Source of the DNA: Nitrospirota bacterium
GTDB taxonomy: Bacteria; Nitrospirota; 9FT-COMBO-42-15; HDB-SIOI813
Direction: 5' to 3'
Length of the DNA stretch: 32,298 nt
Assembly (NCBI GenBank): GCA_016212215.1
Contig: JACRGV010000012.1
Span: forward strand, 1 to 32,298
Below the pieces are notes generated by a model, which was not told the DNA's origin, searched no databases, and was given only the letters and a program-made list of their open reading frames with translations. Made by a program: the position numbers and the translations under genes. Shown here in pieces: positions 28,097-32,298 of this stretch (its first letter is position 1; every line of letters begins with the position of its first letter).

Positions 28097-28173
<77 letters not shown>

Positions 28174-28188
28174 ATTCAAATCAATGGG

Positions 28189-29280
28189 TTAGGAGTTTTC
28201 ACCCTTCTTATAAATCTCCTCAGTGGCAGTTTTGGTGGCAGTTGCGTTTGAAAAATCCCTTCTGGATGGAGTAATTTCAGTTAAACTTTCCACAGCCTGC
28301 CATAAATGAGTTGGTGACAGATGAGCATATCGGTTAAGCATGGCAGGTGACTTCCACCCTCCAAGTGTCATTAAGGTTCTGTCATTTACCCCTTTCATGG
28401 CAAGTCTTGAAGCAAAGGTATGTCTTAAATCATGGAAGCGGAAAGGGGCAAGTCCAGCGGCCTTAATAGCCTTCTCAAAGGTCTTCCTCATTCGACTGTT
28501 ATCATGTGGAAATATCCGGTCTGTCTTTCTATTCTTAAATGCTTCTGATAAGACCTCTTGTACTAAGCTATTCATGGGCATTCTATGAGCTTGTCCGTGT
28601 TTACTCTTCTTTACGGTCAAGATACCAGTATTCCAATCTATATCATCCCATGTCAAACGCAGTAATTCCCCTTGCCGTATACCTGTATTAATGGCGGTCT
28701 TAACAATAGGATGATATGTATTCGATAGGCTTTCAAATAAGGATACTTCTTGCTGGGGTGTAAGGTACCGGACAATTACATTATTAAGTTTGTATTTTTT
28801 TACCTTTGCAGCAGGGTTGACGGATAAAAGGCCGTCCCGGGAAGCCTTGTTATACATAGCCTTTATTAACTCAAGGTGATGGTTAACAGTTGCAGGGGCT
28901 TTCCCCTCTTGTTTTATTTCTGTCAATACATTCTCAATCATAGATGGTGTAATCTTTGATGCGTCCATATCCTTAAAATCAATTAACCATCTTTCAATAA
29001 GGTGATTTTCCCCTTTCGGCCTGCTATGATGAGCGGTAACAAGGGCCAGTCTATCCTTTGCAAGTTCAGAGAACATGACACGTTTACGCTCATACTTTTC
29101 AGGGAACAGGCGGCCTTCCATAGCCTCAACCTTCAACTTCTGATAAAAAGCCTTTGCGGCAGTCTTTGACCCTACCTTCCACCGGCGGCGTTGACCATCA
29201 ATACTTATGTCTACCCACCAGATACCAGACCCTTTTGGTATCTCTATAATACCCTTATCCTTACCGTGTTTTCTTGCCAT
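28189..29280 (-). CDS. Tyrosine-type site-specific recombinase (phage/island integrase)
   Basis: About 363 residues. An N-terminal Arm-type DNA-binding region (WWVDISIDGQRRRWKVGSKT) is followed by a SAM-like core-binding domain (about 70-160) and a catalytic domain with Arg in TGIRQGELLRLTWDDID, Lys in VKKSKHG, the HDLRHTFASRLA box (HxxR), Trp in LGGWKS and the nucleophile Tyr in NRYAHLS, so all catalytic residues are present. I chose the ATG at 29280 because GGAG precedes it by nine bases; an ATG five codons upstream lies within that site. The start overlaps the end of the upstream gene by 20 bp. It integrates and, with the excisionase-like protein, probably excises the element located at tRNA-fMet. 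Confidence 0.93.
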   Translation of the reverse strand: MARKHGKDKGIIEIPKGSGIWWVDISIDGQRRRWKVGSKTAAKAFYQKLKVEAMEGRLFPEKYERKRVMFSELAKDRLALVTAHHSRPKGENHLIERWLIDFKDMDASKITPSMIENVLTEIKQEGKAPATVNHHLELIKAMYNKASRDGLLSVNPAAKVKKYKLNNVIVRYLTPQQEVSLFESLSNTYHPIVKTAINTGIRQGELLRLTWDDIDWNTGILTVKKSKHGQAHRMPMNSLVQEVLSEAFKNRKTDRIFPHDNSRMRKTFEKAIKAAGLAPFRFHDLRHTFASRLAMKGVNDRTLMTLGGWKSPAMLNRYAHLSPTHLWQAVESLTEITPSRRDFSNATATKTATEEIYKKGENS

Positions 29281-30145
29281 GATTTGAATCTCCATTTATT
29301 CTTTTTCTGTTTTGAAAATTCTGTTGTGAAACCCTGTAAGCACACCGTTTAGAGCAATACATTTTCCCTTTATGGTCTATGGTAAAAAATCTTCTGCACT
29401 TCGGATCAGCACATATAGATACAGGGGTTGTAATATCATCAAATAAAGTAGCGTATAGGGCTTGTTTTAGGTTTTTATACAATAAGCAACCTTCCAATTT
29501 ACCTGTTGGCAATATGTTAAATGTTGGCTGAAGACCTTTAAGCTCATCATCAAACACTTTCTGCAAGGAGCTTTCTATGTTGTATTTTAAAAAAGAAACA
29601 TCTTCAATCATTCTTTTTTCCAGTATTTTTGATTCCCTTTTTCCGAGTTCATTCAGTTGGCAGATGCACTGAAGAATATTGCCTAAACGTTCAGAATCTA
29701 TTTTGAGTAAATCTTCAGATATTGTTAAAGAATGTATTAAAAATAAAAGTGCTTTCATCTTTAATATATCTTTGCAAAAATCTTTAAGAAAATACATATC
29801 TGGTGACATACCATCACATTTATTTTCAAGTGCAATTCTGCTTGCTGTATAATCTAAGCTATGTCCAATAATGTCTGGAGCAGAAGAAGGTATCCCTCTA
29901 TTATTGGCATAATTCAGAAGTTCTTCTGTGTTCTCAGGGTCAAGGCTAGCAAATTCAATATAGGGCGGCACAACTTTTTTACTCTTCTTTGAGTCTTGGA
30001 GCTGTTGCCAGGGGTTATATACACCTTCAGGCTTTCCCTGATATTCCATCATTGCCATAAAACACCATTCCCCATATTCAGACTCATCAAGCTCAAACCG
30101 TTGCTTAACAAAGATTTTACTATAATACGATTTTCTATATTCCAT
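29261..30145 (-). CDS. Uncharacterised protein with C-terminal zinc-ribbon (CGNR-like)
   Basis: About 294 residues from the ATG at 30145; an upstream ATG at 30190 would overlap the promoter. Residues about 1-230 are not recognised: mixed helical, no signal peptide or membrane segment. Near the C-terminus SICADPKCRRFFTIDHKGKM and YCSKRCAYRVSQQ give four Cys in a CxxxxC ... CxxxC arrangement followed by a basic QNRKR tail, close to the CGNR zinc finger but with CAYR in place of CGNR. CGNR proteins are often DNA-binding regulators. It overlaps the integrase start by 20 bp, so the two are probably made together; an integrase partner, a regulator or cargo are all possible. Confidence 0.65.
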   Translation of the reverse strand: MEYRKSYYSKIFVKQRFELDESEYGEWCFMAMMEYQGKPEGVYNPWQQLQDSKKSKKVVPPYIEFASLDPENTEELLNYANNRGIPSSAPDIIGHSLDYTASRIALENKCDGMSPDMYFLKDFCKDILKMKALLFLIHSLTISEDLLKIDSERLGNILQCICQLNELGKRESKILEKRMIEDVSFLKYNIESSLQKVFDDELKGLQPTFNILPTGKLEGCLLYKNLKQALYATLFDDITTPVSICADPKCRRFFTIDHKGKMYCSKRCAYRVSQQNFQNRKRINGDSNHGKKTR

Positions 30146-30158
30146 GTTTATGCAAGAT

Positions 30159-30187
30159 ATAGTATATATAACTATTAACAATGTCAA
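30159..30187 (-). promoter_or_regulatory. Putative promoter for the zinc-ribbon/integrase operon
   Basis: On the minus strand -35 TTGACA (30187-30182) with -10 TACTAT at 17-bp spacing (30164-30159), or TATACT at 15-bp spacing. A perfect inverted repeat ATAGT-7 nt-ACTAT (30159-30175) overlaps the -10 region and may be an operator. The resulting mRNA would have a leader of under 10 nt and no ribosome-binding site. Confidence 0.55.
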
Positions 30188-30222
30188 CATATAGTAACAT
30201 CAAAACTAACAAGGGGGTAATT

Positions 30223-30411
30223 ATGCAGACAAAAAAACTTTTAACGGTTGACGAAGCGGCTAATCAACTGGGGCTCAAGTCAACCACCATCCGCAGGCGG
30301 ATACTTGAGAAGACTATTACAACCGTAAAAATCGGGCGGGCGGTTAGAATACCTGTTGAGGCAGTGGAAAGAATAATTGCAGCCGGTTGGCGGGAGTCGG
30401 TGGCTAAATGA
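30223..30411 (+). CDS. Excisionase/AlpA-like helix-turn-helix protein
   Basis: A 62-residue protein with the MerR-like winged helix of excisionase (Xis) and helix_turn_helix_17 proteins: LLTVDEAANQLGLKSTTIRR, then RILEKTITTVKIGRAVRIPV and EAVERIIAAGW. The ATG at 30223 is preceded by AAGGGGG; the frame extends upstream to 30181 but lacks a ribosome site there. It overlaps the helicase gene by 4 bp (ATGA). It probably directs excision by the neighbouring integrase and may also regulate the divergent promoter. Confidence 0.85.
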   Translation: MQTKKLLTVDEAANQLGLKSTTIRRRILEKTITTVKIGRAVRIPVEAVERIIAAGWRESVAK

Positions 30412-31859
30412 CAAAAACTGCAACGGGTTTTAATGCAGCGGATGTTGCTGGCATAAAAGCAAAAAATGCCAAAGACCGTAAGCTATACTTTGAGGGGCCG
30501 GATGATAAAGGGTTTGTACAATATCCTCCGGCACAGCCTGATTTGCAAACCGGCCTTGAATTGGAAACAAATTTCATCTCCTCATTATTTGCGGATACGT
30601 TAAAAGTGGTATCCCTGATGAAAGAGCTACCTGATTTTTCGTCTGATTACTTCATGGATAAGCAATATGCCTTAATCTATGACAAGATCGTAAAGAGGGT
30701 TGACAGCGGCCTTCCATGCGGATTAGAAGACATCGCAGGAGATTTGCAAGGGCAAGTAAGGGCAACAGTAATATCCGAAGCAGCCAATTACTTCCCGGGC
30801 ATGAAAGACCCTCTTTTCTATGCAAGGCAGATACGAGAGGCATACCATAAAAGAACACTCTTCCGGCAGTTTCAGAAAATCAATGATAATTATGATGAGA
30901 TGACACTTGAGGATGTTACAGGAGCAATCAGAAACCTTGTTGCTGAAATTCCTAAGCCTAAAAGTAACTTGTGCATGGTTAGCGCAAGCGATTTTCTTGA
31001 AATGAAATTTCCACCCCGTGAAAATCTCCTTGATCCGTGGCTGCCCACTCAAGGGTTGGCAATGCTTTATGCCATAAGGGGGTTGGGCAAGACACTTCTA
31101 TCACTTTTGATTGCAGTTGTGGTGACAGGTAGCGGCAGCATACATAAATGGAGGGCACAAAGACCCCGTGGCGTCCTTTATTTAGACGGTGAGATGCCGG
31201 CAGTAGTCATGCAAGAAAGATTAGCAAGGGCGATTGAGATGATGGATTCTGAACCCGTTGCGCCTCTAAGAATTATTACCCCTGACCTTCAAGATGGCGG
31301 GATGCCTAACCTTGCGACTTGGGAAGGACAAGAGGCCATTGAACCCTATCTTGAAGGGATTGACCTGATAATTGTTGATAACATCTCAACCCTGTGCCGT
31401 GGAGGGCGGGAGAATGAGGGGGAATCTTGGGAACCTGTGCAAGGTTGGGCACTTAAACAGAGAGCACAAGGCCGATCAGTTCTGTTTGTTCACCATGCCG
31501 GCAAGGGGGGAGCACAGAGGGGCACTTCTAGGCGTGAAGATATTTTGGATACCGTTATAAACTTGAGGAGACCAGGAGATTACACACCTGACCAGGGAGC
31601 TTATTTTGAAGTGCATTTTGAGAAGTCACGGGGCATATATGGAGATAACGTTACACCGTTTGAGATGCAGTTAAAAACATTAGCGTCTAGTAAACAGCAG
31701 TGGAACTTCAAGGATATTGAGGAATCGCTGACTGAAAAAGTTGCAAGAATGCTCAATGATGGTGTTCCTCAGAATGAAATTCCTGAACTACTGAAAATTT
31801 CTAAAGGGACAGTTTCAAAGCATAAAACCAAAGCAATGAACCTTGGATTATTGATATGA
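30408..31859 (+). CDS. RepA/DnaB-like AAA ATPase, putative replicative helicase of the element
   Basis: A 483-residue protein. Residues about 45-165 resemble the helical DnaB N-terminal domain (LETNFISSLFADTLKVVSLM, DKQYALIYDKIV, LFYARQIREAYHKR). Residues about 200-420 form a RecA-type core as in RSF1010-like RepA (AAA_25): Walker A AIRGLGKT near residue 221 (Ala where Gly is usual at the first position, as often seen in this family), then GVLYLDGEMP, Walker B IDLIIVDNIS, VLFVHHAGKGGAQRGTSRRE, and FEKSRG. The C-terminus has a helix-turn-helix (NEIPELLKISKGTVSKHKTK). It suggests that the element replicates autonomously after excision. A putative origin follows directly. Confidence 0.85.
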   Translation: MTKTATGFNAADVAGIKAKNAKDRKLYFEGPDDKGFVQYPPAQPDLQTGLELETNFISSLFADTLKVVSLMKELPDFSSDYFMDKQYALIYDKIVKRVDSGLPCGLEDIAGDLQGQVRATVISEAANYFPGMKDPLFYARQIREAYHKRTLFRQFQKINDNYDEMTLEDVTGAIRNLVAEIPKPKSNLCMVSASDFLEMKFPPRENLLDPWLPTQGLAMLYAIRGLGKTLLSLLIAVVVTGSGSIHKWRAQRPRGVLYLDGEMPAVVMQERLARAIEMMDSEPVAPLRIITPDLQDGGMPNLATWEGQEAIEPYLEGIDLIIVDNISTLCRGGRENEGESWEPVQGWALKQRAQGRSVLFVHHAGKGGAQRGTSRREDILDTVINLRRPGDYTPDQGAYFEVHFEKSRGIYGDNVTPFEMQLKTLASSKQQWNFKDIEESLTEKVARMLNDGVPQNEIPELLKISKGTVSKHKTKAMNLGLLI

Positions 31860-31869
31860 AAAATATGAG

Positions 31870-31878
31870 TTATCCACA
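31870..31878 (+). promoter_or_regulatory. Consensus DnaA box
   Basis: TTATCCACA matches the DnaA-box consensus exactly, 11 bp after the helicase stop codon and 4 bp before the GGAAAC array. Confidence 0.65.
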
Positions 31879-31882
31879 GTTT

Positions 31883-32103
31883 GTTTCCCTGTTTCCCTAT
31901 AGGGGGGGGAAACTGGAAACAATTTACATCAAATTGGAAACTTGGAGGGAAACAAATTGGAAACAAAGAGCCTGAAAGCCTTAGCACTCAAGGTATTGGA
32001 AGGAAACAAGCAGGGAAACAGTAAGGAAACTTTTAGTTTCCATGATGGAAACTCAGAGGGTGTCAGTTTCCCTGAAAGTTTCCCTTCGGAAACTCAAGGA
32101 AAC
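31883..32103. repeat. Array of 16 GGAAAC/GTTTCC motifs, candidate iterons/origin
   Basis: Exact copies begin at 31883, 31891, 31908, 31915, 31936, 31948, 31959, 32002, 32014, 32025, 32036, 32047, 32066, 32078, 32088 and 32098; five are GTTTCC and the rest GGAAAC. Many steps are 10-12 bp, about one helical turn. The array follows the DnaA box and helicase gene and continues into the next CDS. Confidence 0.8.
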
Positions 32104-32298
32104 ACTGCTTTACTTCTTGACCCTTCAGACGTAGAAAACCTTTTCAAGGTACTCAAAATGAAGCTATCAGATTTTAAGCAGGCCGGTCTACTAATCCGGA
32201 TCAAGGCAGGCGTCCTTGACGGTGAGTATATATATCTTGCTTCCAGTGCAAAAGAGGCAGAGACCGGCAAGGCAGAGGGGTTGATCACATACACAGCA
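31957..32298 (+). CDS. Partial CDS starting within the GGAAAC array (continues past window end)
   Basis: The frame is open for 114 codons to the window edge. A TTG start at 31957 has a GGAGGGA ribosome site with about 6-8 bases spacing and gives a product beginning METKSLKALALKVLEGNKQG. The first 50 residues are Gly/Asn/Ser/Glu-rich because they are encoded by the repeat array (GNSKETFSF, FPESFPSETQGN); the following part (LLLDPSDVENLFKVLKMKLS then DFKQAGLLIRIKAG) looks like a folded domain. I do not recognise the family. Similar short leader-plus-repeat proteins occur downstream of replication helicases in integrative elements, from memory, so a replication or mobilisation role is possible. 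Confidence 0.6.
   Translation, partial: METKSLKALALKVLEGNKQGNSKETFSFHDGNSEGVSFPESFPSETQGNTALLLDPSDVENLFKVLKMKLSDFKQAGLLIRIKAGVLDGEYIYLASSAKEAETGKAEGLITYTA

Follow-up and report, generated by a model that had tools for sequence, protein, structure and literature searches.

Covariation of a GGAAAC iteron array with the recognition helix of the adjoining AAA_25 helicase suggests a short-iteron replication origin in a Nitrospirota integrative element

We analyzed a 32,298-bp stretch of Nitrospirota DNA, referred to here as the window, which is an entire contig. An element that starts at a tRNA-Met gene encodes an integrase, a zinc-finger-like protein, an HTH_17 (AlpA-like) protein, and an AAA_25 helicase, and the helicase gene is followed directly by a dense array of short repeats. 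Because the window is the whole contig, the right end of the element is unassembled. The features of the element up to the array are as follows.

28097..28173, plus strand: tRNA-Met (CAT), probable integration site (ARAGORN)
28189..29295, minus strand: tyrosine integrase of the element (Pfam Phage_integrase, E = 1e-31; PHROG integrase, E = 9e-69)
30181..30411, plus strand: small HTH_17 protein, AlpA/excisionase-like (Pfam HTH_17, E = 1.7e-9; PHROG excisionase/regulator)
30408..31859, plus strand: RepA-like AAA_25 helicase with a C-terminal HTH, proposed initiator (Pfam AAA_25, E = 6e-26; match to RSF1010 RepA, 1g8y)
31716..31841, plus strand: codons for residues 437-478, which form the three-helix HTH at the C terminus (AlphaFold model)
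31797..31823, plus strand: codons for ISKGTVSKH (residues 464-472), the recognition helix proposed to read GGAAAC (strongest covariation with the motif once the helicase core is accounted for)
31870..31878, plus strand: DnaA box TTATCCACA

A tRNA-Met gene likewise adjoins the integrase in the relative G092. The PICI gene order of int, an alpA-like gene, and then rep and ori was found in the window at 28189-32103; PICIs as elements are also induced and packaged by a helper phage.

Directly after the helicase gene, a 221-bp segment holds 16 exact copies of GGAAAC/GTTTCC, arranged together with a downstream reading frame as listed below.

31883, 31891, 32036, 32066, 32078: GGAAAC sites, minus orientation
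31908, 31915, 31936, 31948, 31959, 32002, 32014, 32025, 32047, 32088, 32098: GGAAAC sites, plus orientation
31883..31920, inverted pairs: proposed origin core, two minus and two plus sites around CTATAGGGGG; the pattern -8.-18.+8.+ recurs with different motifs
31936..31964, plus strand: first direct GGAAAC triple, steps 12 and 11
32002..32030, plus strand: second direct GGAAAC triple, steps 12 and 11, 66 bp after the first
32036..32103, mixed orientation: six distal sites
31942..32298, plus strand: downstream open reading frame, TTG start at 31942 or 31957, which runs off the contig end and has the array in its 5′ part
31972..31998, plus strand: codons for LKALALKVL, a conserved peptide encoded between the two triples

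Our recount agreed with the 16 exact motifs in both orientations given in an earlier note on this DNA, and its step values were correct (12, 11, 11, and 11 over 32002-32047; 12, 10, and 10 over 32066-32098). Across 2,000 dinucleotide shuffles of 31860-32110, the motif occurred 0.42 times on average and 3 times at most; elsewhere in the window its background was ∼0.08 copies per 221 bp. The helical phasing that the earlier note described was also real, with a mean resultant of 0.71 at a best period between 10 and 12 bp, a value matched by 1 of 1,000 random placements. Genome-wide in the host, the three-motif pattern was detected at two places only, both within the window array. The same note had counted a DnaA box among the ingredients of a plasmid-type origin. 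The box at 31870 is indeed a perfect match and the sole exact one in the window; its role as an origin ingredient was not supported, since the 85 array loci contain 4 exact DnaA boxes versus 4.3 expected (no enrichment) and nearly all relatives lack one. On this non-enrichment in relatives, a plasmid-type origin with DnaA was rejected.

Relatives of the helicase were gathered by protein alone, with arrays ignored. The conserved core of six array-bearing helicases was aligned, and ATPase-core peptide patterns lying outside the HTH and the array were searched in genomes and viral contigs, yielding 166 loci (113 nonredundant at 90% with an HTH). An alignment served as the query because a single-sequence query found no close full-protein relatives in viral contigs. 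Annotated phages and annotated plasmids gave one weak match each, so no characterized member was found among them. Within the phylum, just 9 of the 396 genomes had a helicase relative at E ≤ 1e-15. Cultured hosts among the relatives include Ectothiorhodospira haloalkaliphila (L183) and Herbaspirillum sp. (L205). As the seed alignment came from GGAAAC elements, GGAAAC is overrepresented in the survey; no array other than GGAAAC ones was selected for.

An array was called when, within a 460-bp interval surrounding the stop codon, a hexamer reached at least 7 copies and 0 of 200 shuffles reached that number. By this test, 98 of 158 relatives carried a significant array directly 3′ of the helicase stop, compared with 0 of 148 upstream, 0 of 158 in the gene body, and 1 of 151 further downstream, which bears out the earlier pairing of the array with its helicase in an integrated element. 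Arrays accompanied 91 of the 131 helicases with an aligned HTH versus 7 of the 24 without one, and several of these seven possibly have a DNA-binding domain of another kind at the C terminus. The ∼30% of HTH-bearing relatives without a clear array by this test probably include some with degenerate copies. Separately, a set of AAA_25 relatives (L296-L299, L308) has another C-terminal end, possibly a winged helix, together with CCTTAC or CGCACC arrays, so the role of the HTH may be taken by other DNA-binding domains. At one further locus (L178), 19 GGAAAC sites resemble two array modules in tandem.

Aligning related elements, a check suggested in the earlier note, showed that array number, orientation, and phasing are preserved across families and phyla against an otherwise variable background. 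In G092 and G263, two relatives belonging to another family, the arrays have the offsets of the window, 12 and 11 within the triples and 66 between them. The full pattern -8.-18.+8.+20.+12.+11.+43.+12.+11.+ was found with GGAAAC (L166, L172) and with CGCACA (L227), near-identical geometry was found with GGAACA, GGGACA, and nGCAAC, and the GCACCA class retains the inverted core alone. Over 1,379 between-class pairs, the geometry match was 0.500 versus 0.347 (SD, 0.002) with steps shuffled. The center of the inverted pairs is often CTAG or CTATAG (31 versus 12.2 expected in the first 80 bp). SaPI/PICI-type origins have two sets of iterons on either side of an AT-rich region; here the two triples flank the 43-bp step, and the mean AT profile of the array loci is flat, with no AT-rich unwinding zone on average. 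Orientation and spacing persist while the letters change.

The hexamers found among the relatives include GGAAAC, TGCAAC, CGCAAC, GGGACA, GGAACA, GCACCA, and others, with a conserved unit of 6 to 7 bp and mostly free flanks. Motif similarity was correlated with identity of the recognition helix (r = 0.51, with a partial r of 0.44 once helicase-core similarity was removed; 0 of 300 permutations), and the corresponding values for four AAA-domain segments ranged from -0.04 to 0.04. Columns 281-283 and 286-288, all within the nine-column helix, were the six best of 302 alignment columns. The helix form [KPR][GSR]x[VIA]SK accompanied 16 of 16 GGAAAC arrays and was common to one other locus. Helices of the form [NH][KR]SN paired with CGCAAC in 8 of 8 cases, and those of the form [NH][KR]ST with TGCAAC in 12 of 16 (Fisher p = 0.0013, kinship ignored). 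Tree-independent contrasts, too few for significance, were all in the expected direction. Mapped onto the helicase-core tree, the five main motif classes require 13 or more changes, versus 31 with shuffled labels.

New test loci were fetched later and were <90% identical to the first set. Explicit helix rules, whose patterns were partly post hoc and refined on the first set, gave 12 of 14 new arrays as predicted, with class base rates of 5 to 8 in 35. For prediction from neighbors, the nearest helix identified the motif at 12 of 30 new loci and the nearest core at 7 of 30 (chance, 2.25); the helix-neighbor result is modest, since a single residue can make the difference and close matches were missing for many of the new helices. 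Taken together, the covariation indicates that the letters of an array depend on the recognition helix of its helicase. One locus, L436, has a GGTGAAC array downstream of the helicase stop and a helix, CSKSYVSKV, that violated the GGAAAC rule; this array presumably resembles the published P4 origin repeat.

The AlphaFold model of the helicase (58-row alignment) was confident across most of residues 190-483, comprising a RecA-like domain and then the three HTH helices at 437-450, 455-462, and 466-478 (block pLDDT, 93 to 97). RSF1010 RepA, which has the same helicase fold, was the best solved relative (1g8y; profile E = 5.7e-6; Foldseek E = 1e-10), and the model places the helicase core as a RecA fold of the RSF1010 RepA kind. 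The N-terminal part differs among relatives, with a Toprim domain in L157 and a DnaB-N domain in L158.

We propose that the array is the replication origin of the integrative element, with its hexamers serving as short iterons to which the AAA_25 helicase of that element binds through its HTH, a reading to which we assign a probability of about 0.83. Support comes from the position of the array 3′ of the gene, its geometry, its helix-dependent letters, the predicted RSF1010 RepA fold, and the precedent of SaPI Rep, which uses its C-terminal domain to recognize a short-repeat origin located just 3′ of its gene (PMC7581432). The rep-ori of one Gram-negative PICI allowed a plasmid to be maintained in E. 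coli (PMC6092414). We infer physical binding, helicase loading, and origin function as follows: the HTH would recognize the iterons, initiator and motor being one protein; multiple copies of the helicase would assemble on the helically phased sites, both inverted and direct, and be positioned on DNA within or close to the palindromic core (31883-31920); and unwinding would start after excision or induction.

Alternatively, the array may be a regulatory operator through which the helicase HTH controls transcription of the downstream gene rather than replication. HTH domains often act as repressors, the start of the downstream gene is covered by the array, and the symmetric core could overlap a promoter. 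However, 10 to 19 phased sites would be a large number for an operator, the DNA-reading domain is joined to a replicative-type helicase in every one of these relatives, no array lies upstream of the helicase gene (0 of 148), and by eye the downstream proteins seem to show no relationship in their C-terminal parts. Given in addition that the SaPI precedent is an origin (PMC7581432), we consider an operator unlikely.

It is very unlikely that the array is a partition or incompatibility (centromere-like) site bound by the HTH. Clusters of iterons can serve partition and copy control, but Pfam and PHROG annotation of the window identified no ParA/ParB gene beside the array, and the reader is the helicase itself.

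Most of the array also lies within a reading frame. At 37 of the 85 array loci, across motif classes, this frame encodes the peptide LKALAxKVL at the 43- to 44-bp step. Identities at codon positions 1 to 3 of the peptide were 0.69, 0.82, and 0.49 in the GGAAAC class, a third-position variation expected if the peptide is translated and selected. The surrounding residues, in the same register, follow the motif (GN..GN..ET, AT..AT..QP, RN..RN..GT, GT..GT..GT). That the array is merely a by-product of repeats in the downstream protein, conserved at the codon level, is hardly credible despite this frame and despite one-orientation GGAAAC runs with 6/12-bp steps in some unrelated contigs, as coding repeats would give, because the window sites fall in all three codon phases and both orientations, the same-register residues vary by motif class (GN/ET, AT/QP, RN/GT, GT/RD) while LKALAxKVL is constant, and Legionella relatives keep a similar core despite a differently organized start of the downstream protein. 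The phases, the orientations, and the motif-set residues instead suggest that the array is selected as DNA over a tolerant reading frame; because it overlaps the start of the next gene, the first codons of that gene would be dictated by the iterons. The downstream proteins match no Pfam family. Single-orientation GGAAAC runs with strict 6/12-bp steps (L121, L129, L033, and others) are probably coding repeats and confound pattern searches with this motif; for the window array, a coding-repeat artifact was rejected on the codon phases, orientations, and class-dependent residues. Another contig of the same genome, C97, carries a related, apparently decayed element (L004 5631-9780) with in-frame stop codons in the primase region and a fragment of an integrase. 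The last 171 bp of C97 are shared with the downstream gene of the window; they follow a replication gene of another kind that seems broken, and no array is present, so the downstream gene occurs there without one.

Short iterons directly 3′ of a helicase-initiator gene constitute the SaPI/PICI/SCC layout (PMC7581432, PMC6092414). The plasmid-type origin of the earlier note is revised accordingly, and the short motif length, from which it suggested a possible new origin type, is by itself already known from these systems (PMC7581432, PMC6092414). As in SaPI/PICI Rep-ori and SCC Cch2, whose initiator helicases are self-loading, the repeats of the window lie directly 3′ of the helicase gene, with an integrase and an AlpA-like gene nearby. 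Unlike those systems, which have DUF927 or Primase_Cterm/D5 helicases, the element has an AAA_25 helicase with a predicted RecA fold and three-helix HTH; because the helicase class differs, it would work like SaPI Rep yet stand outside that family. Motif-helix covariation over many hosts and the two fixed triples with an inverted core set it further apart. RSF1010 has a separate initiator, RepC, on 20-bp iterons, whereas here reader and motor are predicted to be in one protein and the sites are 6 to 7 bp. The phage P4 alpha protein (ori/crr) is a primase-helicase that recognizes short repeats via its C-terminal domain; it probably belongs to another helicase class and binds DNA with a different fold. 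Classic iteron plasmids (pSC101, R6K, RK2 type) have longer iterons, DnaA boxes, and a separate Rep that recruits host DnaB. The window resembles them in its phased repeats and nearby DnaA box and differs in a unit of 6 to 7 bp rather than 17 to 22 bp and in a DnaA box that is not conserved. A literature search, with subscription papers mostly outside its range, returned no description of the helix-to-motif relation or of the origin of this helicase family; the helicase class, the tracking of the HTH helix by the motif, and the overlap with coding sequence look new.

More tentatively, at somewhat below even odds, the HTH and the array would form a compact, transferable origin-addressing cassette with a readable amino-acid-to-base code, re-lettered often on a fixed scaffold, written over the start of the neighboring gene, and perhaps serving unrelated folds (the DUF3987 protein of L102). 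The HTH codons adjoin the array, which suggests that the two can move as one cassette. As examples of the code, helices with N in place of T in [NH]KS[TN] pair with CGCAAC and not TGCAAC, and those with R in place of K in KGxVS[KR] pair with GTAAAC and not GGAAAC. If the proposed origin is right, origins and initiators could be paired from sequence alone for a large group of orphan integrative elements, whose hosts include Pseudomonadota, Nitrospirota, Thermodesulfobacteriota, and others, and the 85 natural helix-motif pairs could be used directly to work out how HTH domains recognize DNA. They also raise the question of how more than 10 sites can be re-lettered in concert with no shift in spacing.

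GGAAAC sites were also observed within genes. At L102 (1-1439), a DUF3987 helicase of a different fold class ends in an HTH with the helix SKGTVTK, and six GGAAAC sites lie within its own gene; this may be an unrelated helicase that uses the same helix and motif. A search for relatives of this protein returned itself only. Runs of GGAAAC spaced at 11 bp lie inside phage replication-like genes at L022 (4144-4384), L032 (424-568), and L059 (7501-7749) and are possibly origins inside initiator genes.
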